DNA from: a virus
Strand: one strand, 5' to 3'
DNA: 64,000 nt
Virus record (IMG/VR): IMGVR_UViG_3300024513_000016
Coordinates: 1 to 64,000 of that record
The notes under the pieces are model-generated. The model was not told the origin of the DNA, did no database searches, and was given only the letters and a program-made list of their open reading frames with translations. Of the stretch, positions 1,463 to 12,187 are shown in pieces. The position numbers were made by a program, and so were the translations under genes. How positions within the stretch are numbered: the stretch's first letter is position 1; every line of letters starts with the position of its first letter.

Positions 1463-2161
1463 TTATTTAGGTTTAGTCCATCCTTTATGTTGTTTTTGTT
1501 TTCCACATAAAACTCTACGAATACAACTATAATTTAAATTATTTTCAATACAAAATTTAGTAAGATTAACTTCTTCTACTATATTTCCATCTGGACTAAT
1601 AATTTTAAATTTCTTCCAAAAATGTGGTTTGGATTTTCCTTTATGTAAATCACTTAACTTTTTTCTAGTTTCTTCAGTAAAAACTTGATTTGCTCTCTTT
1701 TCTTTTATTTTTCGTTTTGCTTCTTCGGTATGCTTTATTCCAGTTCTTCCTTTTTTTATTTTTTCTATAACTTCTGGGGGTCTCTTTTTACCTATTAATG
1801 CTTTACTTATTTTCAATTTTGTTTCATCAGTAAATTTTTGAAGTGCTCTTTTTTCTTTAATTTTTTGTTTAGTTTCTTCACTCATATTACAGACACCATC
1901 ACCACCATTAGTTTTGTTCTGTAAAATTCCCATTCCCAAATCTTTCCTTCCATAAACAGAAATCATATAAATCTCGTGCTTATAGGCATTTTCTGCTGTA
2001 ATATTCTTTTTAAGAAAAATTATTCTAGATTTATCTTTCGGGGGCTTAATATCTGTTGCTTTTCTTTTATGTATTCTATTCCCACTACCTTTACCTATGT
2101 AGTAAGGTGTTCTATCTTCACGCAAATATGCATAGGTATAAAATCGGTTAGGATTTACCAT
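1463..2161 (-). CDS. GIY-YIG homing endonuclease with NUMOD3 repeats
   Basis: A free-standing homing endonuclease of 232 aa that would cut a related intronless or insert-free genome to spread its own gene. Residues 7-90 are the GIY-YIG nuclease: YTY (8-10) and YYIGKG (20-25) form the paired motif, followed by the conserved R29, E63 (HEIYMI) and N85 (NKTNGGDG). Residues about 93-178 hold several NUMOD3-type DNA-binding repeats (EETK..IKEK.., TEEAKRKIKEKR, TEETRKKLSDLHKG). Residues 186-228 are a helix-turn-helix/NUMOD1-like end (NLTKFCIENN ... GKQKQHKGW). The ATG at 2161 is preferred: an upstream in-frame TTG at 2185 would lie at or before the start point of the late promoter at 2189-2196. The gene stands alone between two late virion genes. 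Confidence 0.92.
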   Translation of the reverse strand: MVNPNRFYTYAYLREDRTPYYIGKGSGNRIHKRKATDIKPPKDKSRIIFLKKNITAENAYKHEIYMISVYGRKDLGMGILQNKTNGGDGVCNMSEETKQKIKEKRALQKFTDETKLKISKALIGKKRPPEVIEKIKKGRTGIKHTEEAKRKIKEKRANQVFTEETRKKLSDLHKGKSKPHFWKKFKIISPDGNIVEEVNLTKFCIENNLNYSCIRRVLCGKQKQHKGWTKPK

Positions 2162-2188
2162 TTCTACTCTTAAATTGGTTCGCAATAG

Positions 2189-2257: not shown

Positions 2258-3109
2258 CTATTTATCAACTGCTCCAGTCATTAGTCCCGTTTTGTTGCTC
2301 TTATCACTGCTTCTCTTGCCAAACACTTTCTTATAAAGTTTTGCTCTCTTTGCTACTCCAGTCTTTTGATCTTCACCAGACATCACTGCTGTTGGTTTTC
2401 CAACTACAGTCTCACCTTTCTTTGCACCTGCTCTCTTGAGATGCTTTGGAGTATCTTTTAGTGCTTGAATAAAGTTTCTACCTCTTTCCATTTGATTATC
2501 TGGGTCACCTTTTCCGACATCACTATCACGGTGCATAATATCTACAGTATGAACTGGACCTCTCTTATTAGCACCTGATTTAGAGATTTGCTTTTTCAAA
2601 TCCTTTACTCTTCTTACACTTTCACTTGAAGGTGCAGTTTTCAATCTAGTCATTCCAGTTGGAGTTTTTCCTGCTGTTTTGAACTTACGGATTAACTGTT
2701 CTCCCTTTGCTGCTTTTCTTGCTGATGCGTGAGTACGAATGTAATGATCCTGCTCGGTGCTGCCATAATCATCTTCAGTATCTTCACTATCATAAGTTGT
2801 GTAGTCTTTTGCTTTGGTTCTCAAATCTTTGGTGGAATACTTACCAGTTCCTTTGAGTCCTGCTTTCTTTGCAATCGCAGCAGTAGATCTTTCTTGCCTT
2901 GTCATATCAGCACCACGACCACGAGCAAGAGTTACCTTGCCTCGTGTTCTTCTACCACTTCTTTCACCAGTTGAACTCTCTTCAAGTTCTTCAATATCTT
3001 CTTTCACACAACGATTATAAGTCTTCCCAAAGAGTTTTTGTGTCCCTTTCTTCTTATAACCAGGCCAGCACTTTTTTGCTTCAGAAATAAATTCCTGATA
3101 TGTCTTCAT
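2258..3109 (-). CDS. Putative head-packaged protein with T4-like capsid-targeting N-terminus
   Basis: 283 aa, very basic. The first eleven residues, MKTYQEFISEA, differ at one position from the capsid-targeting sequence I recall for T4 internal proteins (MKTYQEFIAEA), including the I-x-E cleavage site for the gp21-type prohead protease. Residues 12-37 form a small two-cysteine motif (KCWPGYKKKGTQ..FGKTYN.CV) that recurs in marine phage proteins. The rest is lysine/arginine/serine-rich and probably disordered, as in T4 internal proteins. Its start overlaps the stop of the upstream gene by ATGA, so the two are translationally coupled. Function after delivery is unknown; packaging is inferred. 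Confidence 0.82.
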   Translation of the reverse strand: MKTYQEFISEAKKCWPGYKKKGTQKLFGKTYNRCVKEDIEELEESSTGERSGRRTRGKVTLARGRGADMTRQERSTAAIAKKAGLKGTGKYSTKDLRTKAKDYTTYDSEDTEDDYGSTEQDHYIRTHASARKAAKGEQLIRKFKTAGKTPTGMTRLKTAPSSESVRRVKDLKKQISKSGANKRGPVHTVDIMHRDSDVGKGDPDNQMERGRNFIQALKDTPKHLKRAGAKKGETVVGKPTAVMSGEDQKTGVAKRAKLYKKVFGKRSSDKSNKTGLMTGAVDK

Positions 3110-3579
3110 TGTCCACCACCCATTGAACGTGATCTTTGTGCTCTCTTCAATGCAACTTTATATTCTGGGGATGGACCTGAACCAATAGGTCTTTCTCCTT
3201 TTTCTCTCTTTGCTCTTTCTATTTTTTGTTGTTCCAACTTACCAACACCTCTCTTTCTTCCAGGTGCTTCTGCACCACTTCCACCACCTCCATGTGCATG
3301 TCTCTTATAAGTTCCAAGAACTTCATAACGAGAAGCATAGGGATTAGTTGCAGTGTCAATCATCCCTTGTTTAGTTCTACCTAATGATGCTTCACGAGAT
3401 ACAGTTTTCTTTTCTGACTTTTTTAATTTCCACTTTGTATCACTACCTTCAGGTTGTCTTTCAACTCTAGCAGACTTTACAGTTGTATAAAGAGGAGTCT
3501 TTTTCTTTCCAGCAACTTTATCTTCTTTACGCATTTCGTAAAGATGTGCTTCTTCTAGAAACTCTTTAAAGGTCTTCAT
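3106..3579 (-). CDS. Putative head-packaged basic protein with capsid-targeting-like N-terminus
   Basis: 157 aa. It starts MKTFKEFLEEA, matching the T4 internal-protein targeting pattern (MKT-aromatic-x-EF) with an L-x-E cleavage site after residue 10. The mature part is strongly basic and rich in Lys, Arg and Gly, with no fold I recognise; a GGGGSG run and KRGVGKLEQQKIERAKREKG lie in the second half. It sits 27 nt after the HNH-like fusion gene and overlaps the next gene by 4 nt. A GATAAATA late promoter lies 21 nt before its ATG. Confidence 0.8.
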   Translation of the reverse strand: MKTFKEFLEEAHLYEMRKEDKVAGKKKTPLYTTVKSARVERQPEGSDTKWKLKKSEKKTVSREASLGRTKQGMIDTATNPYASRYEVLGTYKRHAHGGGGSGAEAPGRKRGVGKLEQQKIERAKREKGERPIGSGPSPEYKVALKRAQRSRSMGGGQ

Positions 3580-3599
3580 CTTTTTATAACTTTTATTTT

Positions 3600-3607
3600 T
3601 ATTTATC
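3600..3607 (-). promoter_or_regulatory. T4-type late promoter variant GATAAATA
   Basis: GATAAATA on the minus strand, 21 nt before the ATG at 3579, partly inside the end of the upstream gene. Confidence 0.5.
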
Positions 3608-4626
3608 TAGGATTTTGCTTTTGCTTTTTTCTTTTGTCTTCTCACTGCTGCAGAAAGAAGTTCTTTATGAGGAATTGAACCAGAAACAATATCTTTTGTT
3701 TTTGATTCTATTTCATGTGCTCCACCCTTTCTATGATAAATTCCAGGTTTATCTGAAGGATCAGTAGATCTCTTAGCACCCATTATATTTCTTGGATGAT
3801 GTCCATGATAAACCCCTTGCGAAGCATCTTTTTTTACTCGTTCTTTCCACTCTGCATCACTCATAGATGACTTCAATTTTGAAGAATAATGTAGTGGAGT
3901 AATATGATGTGCTTCTAATCCTTTAGACTTCAATTTTCTTATTTTAGTATCTGCAGTTCTTCTTTCTTCACTCGAACTTAAATTTTCAATTCTTTCTTTT
4001 CTTCTTCCTCTTTCACCTACACCTCCAGATTTAGGTTTAAGTCTCCATTTTGGATTTTCAGTGCTGCCAGCATTATTAGCATAATAACCTGATGGAATCC
4101 CACCATGATGTTTTTCTAATTCAGATCTACTTGAAAAATATCTCTGTGCTTCAATTAAATATACTTCTTCAAAAAACTCTTTAAATGTTTTTTTCTTATT
4201 TCCCCAATTCTTTGCTCCTACTTTTCTACACTTAACTAATGCTCCAGAAGCATAAGCACTTGGCCATACACTATAACGAGATTTTACTTTATGATAACAT
4301 GCATCTTTTTCTTCAGTTGCAACCATTTTTGCTTTCCCTCTCTTATTTGGGTCTGGATCTTGACGATTCTTACGTTCAAAAGCTTTCTGCTCTTCTTCAT
4401 CAGAAAGTGCTGCTTTCATCTTGCTAGAACCACACTTCGGTTTTGTAGTTTGTCCTGGTTGTTTTGCACAAGGTTTTCCTGCATATCTTCCACCCAACTG
4501 AACCCAACCAGGTTTACCATCTGATGACTTACTTTTAGTAAACCAATCATGAAGAGAATAATCTCCAGATTTTCTACCTTCATAGATATTATCAAAATCT
4601 AAAAAAAACTCTCTAAAACCTTTCAT
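3607..4626 (-). CDS. Multidomain packaged-effector candidate: two targeting-like segments and an HNH-like nuclease end
   Basis: 339 aa that look like several modules joined. Residues 1-16 (MKGFREFFLDFDNIYE) resemble the capsid-targeting peptide. Residues 24-70 (SLHDWFTKSKSSDGKPGWV ... two Cys) and 109-142 (ACYHKVKSRYSVWPSAYASG..VKCRKVG) are two small cysteine modules that recur in marine phage proteins and have no function I know. Residues 146-160 (KTFKEFFEEVYLIEA) are a second targeting-like segment, now internal, as if two packaged proteins had fused. The C-terminal third has an HNH-like layout: EAHHITPL (239-245), YHGHHPRNI (273-281) and a later HRKGGAHE (298-305). The nuclease call is from motif layout only; activity is unproven. 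It is expressed from a late promoter variant 20 nt upstream. Confidence 0.8.
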   Translation of the reverse strand: MKGFREFFLDFDNIYEGRKSGDYSLHDWFTKSKSSDGKPGWVQLGGRYAGKPCAKQPGQTTKPKCGSSKMKAALSDEEEQKAFERKNRQDPDPNKRGKAKMVATEEKDACYHKVKSRYSVWPSAYASGALVKCRKVGAKNWGNKKKTFKEFFEEVYLIEAQRYFSSRSELEKHHGGIPSGYYANNAGSTENPKWRLKPKSGGVGERGRRKERIENLSSSEERRTADTKIRKLKSKGLEAHHITPLHYSSKLKSSMSDAEWKERVKKDASQGVYHGHHPRNIMGAKRSTDPSDKPGIYHRKGGAHEIESKTKDIVSGSIPHKELLSAAVRRQKKKAKAKS

Positions 4627-4645: not shown

Positions 4646-4653
4646 TATTTAGT
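4646..4653 (-). promoter_or_regulatory. Late promoter variant ACTAAATA
   Basis: ACTAAATA on the minus strand, 20 nt before the ATG at 4626; one of six (C)TAAATA sites at like distance before genes in this window. Confidence 0.5.
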
Positions 4654-11833: not shown

Positions 11834-11990
11834 ATGCTCCCTCCACGTAAGGTCCGTGTTCTCGTTTGGCATCTTCTCTGACATAATTGATCTCCGAAGC
11901 ACTAGAGGACAACCATAAAGATACTTTCATAATCACATAAATGATTGCAAGGGGGAGAAAACATAGTGAAAGGATGATAGTATTTTTCAT
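11799..11990 (-). CDS. Small membrane protein, 63 aa
   Basis: One hydrophobic helix (about 3-28) followed by NYVREDAKREHGPYVEGAYA and an acidic DVDKEDEED end. I recognise this as a highly conserved cyanophage protein. The charged, invariant-looking tail would face the cytoplasm or periplasm and may hold the function; unknown. ATGA overlap with the HiPIP-like gene upstream. Confidence 0.88.
   Translation of the reverse strand: MKNTIILSLCFLPLAIIYVIMKVSLWLSSSASEINYVREDAKREHGPYVEGAYADVDKEDEED
11837..11844 (-). promoter_or_regulatory. Strong Shine-Dalgarno inside the upstream gene
   Basis: GGAGGGAG on the minus strand, inside the membrane-protein gene's coding sequence, 3 nt before the ATG at 11833. 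Confidence 0.65.
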
Positions 11991-12187
11991 TGATTTTTTC
12001 TGTCATATTGATGCCATTTACACCAACCATCTGGTGAGATTTTACCACTTACTGCAGTGCAAGCATTTGGAGGTCTCCACATGTTACAATTGGAACATTT
12101 TTCATTTCCTTTTGGTTCATTTTGATATTTTGCAATCGATTTAGATGCTTTTTCTTCCTCGAAAAGAAATTCTTTAAATGTTTTCAT
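11987..12187 (-). CDS. HiPIP-like iron-sulfur protein with capsid-targeting-like N-terminus, 66 aa
   Basis: Residues 21-60 resemble a high-potential iron-sulfur protein: C31-x2-C34-x8-C43-x12-C56, with NMW after the second Cys, VSGKISPDGWCKW around the fourth, and the YQ lead. The spacing is shorter than in bacterial HiPIPs. The first ten residues, MKTFKEFLFE, match the T4-type capsid-targeting peptide seen on the left-end proteins. If both readings are right, a small Fe-S electron carrier, or its apo-form, would be packaged in the head or processed by the prohead protease. It is encoded inside the early operon, with 4-nt overlaps on both sides, which argues for early expression as well. Confidence 0.8.
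   Translation of the reverse strand: MKTFKEFLFEEEKASKSIAKYQNEPKGNEKCSNCNMWRPPNACTAVSGKISPDGWCKWHQYDRKNQ

Follow-up and report, generated by a model that had tools for sequence, protein, structure and literature searches.

A capsid-targeting leader of the T4 type is the probable common feature of unrelated proteins in a freshwater cyanophage

Four proteins of a freshwater cyanobacterial virus begin with closely similar peptides, and this shared leader is very probably a T4-type capsid-targeting (CTS) peptide, by which its carriers would bind the prohead scaffold, be enclosed, be cut by a gp21-type protease and probably leave the head with the DNA. We also lean slightly toward a wider reading, to be taken as one joint proposition, in which the peptide is a general address label of aquatic T4-like phages. 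Dozens of unrelated proteins would be loaded into virions by it and carried to cyanobacterial and other hosts, among them a PioC-type iron-sulfur electron carrier, a Cas9-annotated protein, a SAM hydrolase, candidate nucleases, ADP-ribosyltransferases, kinases and nucleotidyltransferases. The mechanism itself is already known from T4. In the literature searched, which lay outside subscription journals, we found neither a CTS label described for cyanophages nor these member proteins, their redox cargo or so broad a range of labelled cyanophage proteins.

The window, as we call the whole stretch of DNA analyzed here, consists of bases 1 to 64000 of a linear virus record of 112,242 bases. This record is a fragment of a T4-like cyanophage whose baseplate and replication genes resemble those of two Synechococcus phages, S-SM1 and the freshwater phage S-SRM01 (240 kb). 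It carries the host-like genes psbD (89% identity to the S-SM1 photosystem gene), transaldolase and gnd. In T4, residues 4 and 7 of the CTS direct targeting and residues 8 and 10 direct processing, and aspartate at position 10 stops processing but not targeting (PMC9026906). The three T4 internal proteins have their leader alone in common, and once injected they block GmrSD restriction enzymes (PMC12373910).

Leaders of the four window proteins

The original prediction described three consecutive proteins with such leaders, and we found all of them, encoded by tandem minus-strand genes and measuring 283 aa (MKTYQEFISEA), 157 aa (MKTFKEFLEEA) and 339 aa (MKGFREFFLD). The fourth minus-strand open reading frame, of 66 aa, was likewise confirmed and starts with MKTFKEFLFEE (Table 1). 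The T4 leader given for comparison, MKTYQEFIAEA, is indeed the start of both IPII and IPIII, as read from NC_000866, and the leader of the 283-aa protein is identical to it at 10 of 11 positions. T4 IPI starts with MKTFKEFTSTT (NC_000866), sharing MKTFKEF with the 157- and 66-aa proteins. Since IPII/IPIII-like MKTYQEFI and IPI-like MKTFKEF starts both occur among its genes, the window carries both T4 leader types. Alt had been named together with IPI to IPIII as being sent to the prohead by this peptide; that holds for the leader type of IPI to IPIII, but Alt begins with MELITELFDE, which is another type.

Table 1. Positions of the features discussed, counted from the first base of the window
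Feature	Position	Strand	Remark
NUMOD3-containing homing endonuclease	1463..2185	-	Cassette neighbour, not cargo
283-aa basic protein: CTS, KCW module (KKCWPGYKKKGTQKLFGKTYNRCV), variable region, conserved C-terminal domain	2258..3109	-	pI 10.1
CTS of 283-aa protein, MKTYQEFISE/A	3077..3109	-	Predicted gp21-type cut after E10; T4 IPII/IPIII likeness
157-aa basic protein without known domain	3106..3579	-	pI 10.2; beside 283-aa gene in relatives too
CTS of 157-aa protein, MKTFKEFLEE/A	3547..3579	-	Predicted cut after E10; residues 1-7 as in T4 IPI
339-aa basic protein: leader, T4-GC119/DUF5872-like region, internal CTS-like motif, HNH-like domain	3607..4626	-	pI 9.9
HNH-like (AHH-type) candidate nuclease domain, AHHITP...YHGHHPRN...H...H	3637..4140	-	Invariant residues in relatives
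Internal CTS-like motif KKTFKEFFEE	4165..4194	-	KTFKEFVEEA ahead of same HNH-like domain in relatives
T4-GC119/DUF5872-like region	4198..4596	-	Homologue inside MS-detected S-CREM2 virion protein ORF160 (tblastn 45%, E=4e-36)
CTS-like leader MKGFREFFLD (F4, F7, D10)	4597..4626	-	Predicted targeting without cleavage (D10 effect: PMC9026906)
CTAAATA late-promoter-like element	4646..4652	-	26 nt upstream of first cassette gene
66-aa protein: CTS-like leader and PioC-type HiPIP domain (residues 12-59)	11987..12187	-	PDB 6xyv, PF01355
CTS-like leader MKTFKEFLFEE	12155..12187	-	MKTFKEF shared with T4 IPI

An aromatic residue at position 4 and F7 are present in all four leaders, [IL]8 and E10 in three, and D10 in one. 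The I/L-x-E processing site, noted in two of the three cassette proteins, is found in those of 283 and 157 aa, and the 66-aa protein has such a site as well, L-F-E, with a further E behind it, whereas the 339-aa protein has D10 instead. A family search found no common mature domain among the four proteins. The leaders' codons differ at synonymous sites and the upstream DNA is identical at only 12 to 18 of 40 bases, so that the likeness resides at the protein level; the same two observations rule out a recent duplication of one leader DNA.

The cassette proteins are basic, as had been proposed (pI 9.9 to 10.2 in all three, against a genome median of 5.5), but the fourth protein turned out not to be one more basic internal protein. 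It is a HiPIP of the PioC type and a predicted electron carrier. Taken together, the packaging idea of the original prediction holds in part: targeting is well supported by position-specific agreement with T4 genetics, by the recurrence of the leader on dozens of unrelated proteins of T4-like phages and by mass spectrometry (MS) of relatives' virions. The comparison with Alt and the nature of the fourth protein had to be corrected, and the 339-aa protein is predicted to be targeted without cleavage.

Proposed cargo proteins and their genomic setting

In the 283-aa family the label is constant while the body changes. Among 12 relatives 15 columns are invariant, six of which lie in the leader (M1, K2, T3, E6, F7 and E10); L262 and L273 lack the KCW module, and L259 has two copies of the C-terminal domain. 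Searches of Pfam and PHROGs assigned no function to the 283-, 157- and 339-aa proteins. The sole functional hint from these databases was a match of residues 1 to 20 of the 283-aa protein to phrog_2667, 'internal head protein' (E=0.013), which is the leader itself. Modelling with AlphaFold2 (AF2) was poor for both the 283-aa protein (pLDDT 60) and the 339-aa protein (pLDDT 57), and the models had no significant counterpart in the PDB; we therefore claim no fold for either.

The HNH-like domain of the 339-aa protein had no Pfam and no Foldseek/PDB match; its residues H240, H241, H274, N280, H298, E305 and K309 are invariant in 13 relatives. Both in the window and at loci L249 to L272, an internal KTF.EF precedes this domain in nearly all relatives despite a differing upstream part. 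At another locus (L080) the HNH-like domain is a separate protein with the N-terminus MKTFKEFILEA. The simplest history suggested by these sequences would be that a labelled HNH-like protein became fused to various upstream proteins, and the internal KKTFKEFFEE may be a relic of the fusion or a second cutting site.

The 66-aa protein matches PioC (PDB 6xyv) with E=1e-10 and identical cysteine spacing, C-x2-C-x8-C-x12-C, and scores 22.8 bits against the Pfam family PF01355 (cut-off 22). S-SRM01 gp061 is 83% identical to it and starts with MKSFQEFLFEE; among 50,697 phage records, the only other match was a weak one in an uncultured phage. The four-cysteine spacing is common to PioC and residues 12 to 59 of the phage protein, which differs from PioC in having a CTS-like leader that directly abuts the domain and, at 11 residues, is too short for an export signal.

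Relatives keep the cassette: at most loci a gene of the MKTFKEFLEEA type adjoins a MKTYQEFISEAKKCW gene, and in some relatives an extra labelled gene lies between these two or after both. A search for gp21 across the 112-kb record, a fragment, found none, and the S-SRM01 portal and major capsid proteins likewise had no matches on it. A 247-kb relative (G001) carries the cassette together with a gp21-family protease (PF03420, E=1e-36), and its major capsid protein has an LYE site at the expected place; a gp21-type prohead protease is also annotated in S-SRM01. CTAAATA, found ahead of the first cassette gene, occurs 15 times on the coding strand of the record and 4 times on the other strand, and TATAAATA-like elements lie upstream of labelled S-CREM2 genes. 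Such elements in front of labelled genes are consistent with late expression. The NUMOD3-type homing endonuclease beside the cassette may help to mobilize it.

Occurrence of the label in other phages and in virions

The leader motif is confined to gene starts. In a six-frame search of four genomes, the strict motif K[TSNGK][FY][QKSRH][EQA]F[ILMV].E had three matches in the window's own 112-kb record, four in S-SRM01, one in S-SM1 and two in a 50-kb stretch of T4, each of them right after the start methionine and none elsewhere in any of the six frames. With a looser motif, S-SRM01, which has 353 annotated features, showed nine labelled genes, one of them directly after gp23 and one annotated as a cytidyltransferase; several of the labelled S-SRM01 proteins do not have the cleavage residues.

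In IMG/VR, MKTF[KQ]EF occurred in at least 120 stretches, compared with 32 for the codon-permuted control MKEF[KQ]TF. This contrast is conservative, because three of the 32 control matches (MKEFKTFLTEA twice, MKEFKTFISEE once) themselves fit the targeting pattern F4/F7/[LI]8/E10. Among the matches listed, T4 core genes were present at 69 of 120 MKTF[KQ]EF loci and at 4 of 32 control loci, and 93 complete MKTF[KQ]EF proteins fell into at least 47 unrelated families when their mature parts were compared by BLASTP. An alignment of the 47 family representatives among these matches showed only the searched residues to be invariant. Residues 8 to 11 lay outside the search pattern, and here E10 was present in 27 of the 47 families listed (7% of background N-termini, p=2e-19) and [ILMV]-x-E-[ASGCT] in 17 of 47 (1.3% of background, p=2e-20). 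Kinship affects counts within families, and counts between families are less exposed to it. Genes starting with MKTYQEF[IM] have E10 in 80 of 84 cases and A, S, C or T at position 11 in 79 of 84; their carriers are T-even-size contigs with T4-type internal proteins as well as aquatic contigs.

The cargo in relatives is diverse and includes labelled nucleotidyltransferases and, at L065:6037-6813 (+), an ADP-ribosyltransferase (ART-PolyVal, E=1e-23) that starts with MKTFKEFIKES. A second MKTFKEF match lies just downstream of this gene. The four window proteins showed no ADP-ribosyltransferase domain, and regular-expression searches for the KCW and DGHG modules gave 0 of 93 among the MKTF matches listed. 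A protein starting with MKTFQEFLNEA at L034:590-1051 (+) has a HELVH zinc-peptidase-like motif and a weak Peptidase_M78 match (E=0.0096). Cargo functions beyond ART-PolyVal, the cytidylyltransferases and the HiPIP rest on motifs or weak matches.

Published virion proteomes of relatives lend packaging independent support. The GC190 cytidylyltransferase was detected by MS in S-SM1 virions (PMC3037559). Across 80 GC190 orthologues, F4, F7, L8, E10 and A11 are invariant, residue 3 is partly variable and residue 9 is T, N, S, I or V; the pattern also holds in divergent orthologues (MKSFLNFISES, MKGFSNFLIEA, MRSFLTFLTEA). For S-CREM2, a virion protein list with coordinates has been published (PMC10665884). 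MS-detected proteins matching the motif in the T4 register are the SAM hydrolase ORF6 (MKDFDSFLEE), the APH-like kinase ORF14 (MKRFDAFLTE), the cytidylyltransferase ORF154 (MKNFSSFLTEA) and ORF136 (MQTFSMFFSE), and the sole undetected match is a 26-aa ORF. With annotated structural proteins excluded, four of five proteins with the T4-register motif were detected, compared with 22 of 188 others (p=0.0012), and all three with the strict motif were detected (p=0.0022); the motifs had been fixed before the S-CREM2 N-termini were read, at a time when the pattern of the GC190 family was already known. The authors of the S-CREM2 study considered that the enzymes may be contaminants of the CsCl-purified virions (PMC10665884).

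Post hoc, variants of the leader were seen in two further S-CREM2 virion proteins, ORF13 (MKDLHSFLTE) and the Cas9-annotated ORF12 (LRFASFMAEA near residue 20). In the latter (OR473000: 7704-10313, -, locus L369), the CTS-like stretch is followed by a segment of the LGLVSDGHG type, which is also present in GC190 homologues and in the APH-like kinase. The MS-detected S-CREM2 ORF160 contains homologues of both the GC119 region of the 339-aa protein and the KCW module of the 283-aa protein, and it does not bear an N-terminal label. In the virion proteome of S-SZBM1 (PMC9146016), a cytidylyltransferase is the only listed enzyme outside structural and unknown proteins. Here the motif proteins are this cytidylyltransferase (MRFRQFIIEA), which was detected, and a 105-aa protein, which was not (p=0.26, 30-protein proteome); because of the latter, the S-SZBM1 proteome alone does not support the claim.

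Proposed mechanism, alternatives and known systems

Late in infection, the labelled proteins would attach through F4 and F7 to the core of the prohead scaffold and be enclosed as the shell forms. A gp21-type prohead protease would then cut after residue 10 at [IL]-x-E to yield mature proteins; such cleavage is probable for the 283- and 157-aa proteins and possible for the HiPIP, while the 339-aa protein, with D10, is predicted to be enclosed with its leader kept. Packaging of all four window proteins is likely. The mature proteins would remain with the DNA and, as we infer by analogy with T4, probably enter the host cell alongside it.

Host delivery is the step disputed by the most serious alternative, which we consider unlikely but worth weighing: the leader binds the prohead core, but its bearers belong to the scaffold or to the internal structure of the head and either stay there or are degraded. 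In its favour, the strongly basic cassette proteins could condense DNA, gp21 cuts the T4 core proteins gp22, gp67 and gp68 (PMC9026906), and proteins of the GC119/KCW type do occur in virions. Yet a scaffold role is implausible for cargo as diverse and enzyme-like as ART-PolyVal, the nucleotidyltransferases and the SAM hydrolase and kinase of S-CREM2, and in T4 the bearers of this leader act, once injected, against restriction (PMC12373910).

Two other readings dispense with the capsid altogether. That the N-terminal likeness serves translation efficiency, stability or another assembly such as the tail seems to us quite improbable: MK- starts are common and the literature searched yielded no targeting experiment with a cyanophage leader, but the conserved positions 4, 7, 8, 10 and 11 are those of T4 targeting and processing while position 9 varies, codons and upstream DNA differ between the leaders, and the motif marks virion enzymes in S-CREM2. 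To chance or low-complexity likeness of short lysine-rich starts we give practically no credence. The peptide is indeed just 7 to 11 residues long, but this explanation is rejected by the absence of strict matches away from gene starts, by the far rarer permuted control and by the strongly non-random residues at the unsearched positions 8 to 11.

Under the preferred reading of a T4-type CTS, the closest known counterparts are T4 IPI to IPIII, which likewise carry the leader, with its determinant residues 4, 7, 8 and 10, on unrelated and often basic proteins. The window proteins, by contrast, are larger, consist of several domains and have mature parts unrelated to those of the T4 proteins; the leader with D10 is accompanied by a second, internal label, and an iron-sulfur protein is among the cargo. 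T4 Alt, a head-carried and ejected enzyme, has a possible functional parallel in the labelled ART-PolyVal of a relative (L065), but its leader is not of the MKT[FY].EF type. The GC190 cytidylyltransferases of S-SM1, S-CREM2 (ORF154) and S-SZBM1 (S-SZBM1_140) have the leader pattern of the window and were detected in virions; their mature protein differs, and the S-SZBM1 form of the leader is one residue shorter. T4-GC119 (Syn9 gp114, S-SM1_115 and an S-P4 structural protein) shares homology with two of the window proteins: with the 339-aa protein over its N-terminal half (∼73 to 78% identity in matched segments) and with the 283-aa protein in the KCW module. In these marine phages it is a single protein that lacks an N-terminal CTS and is encoded between gp16 and gp17, whereas here its modules reside on separate labelled proteins encoded elsewhere.

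The functions of most T4-like cyanophage genes have still to be assigned, as has the set of proteins that accompanies the DNA into the host. The label accounts for which non-structural enzymes were found in S-CREM2 virions. It would single out, among many uncharacterized genes, those whose products may be delivered to take over the host or counter its defences, and T4 assays could then be used to test them. If the peptide is a general label, injected effectors could be read straight from genome sequence. Apart from the labelled genes, the window encodes a 466-aa protein (46-1446, -) that starts with MDSQDLRNLYEAYTNVYE and is possibly another virion-linked module; a short segment of it, at about residues 315 to 370, is repeated at several places in S-SRM01.
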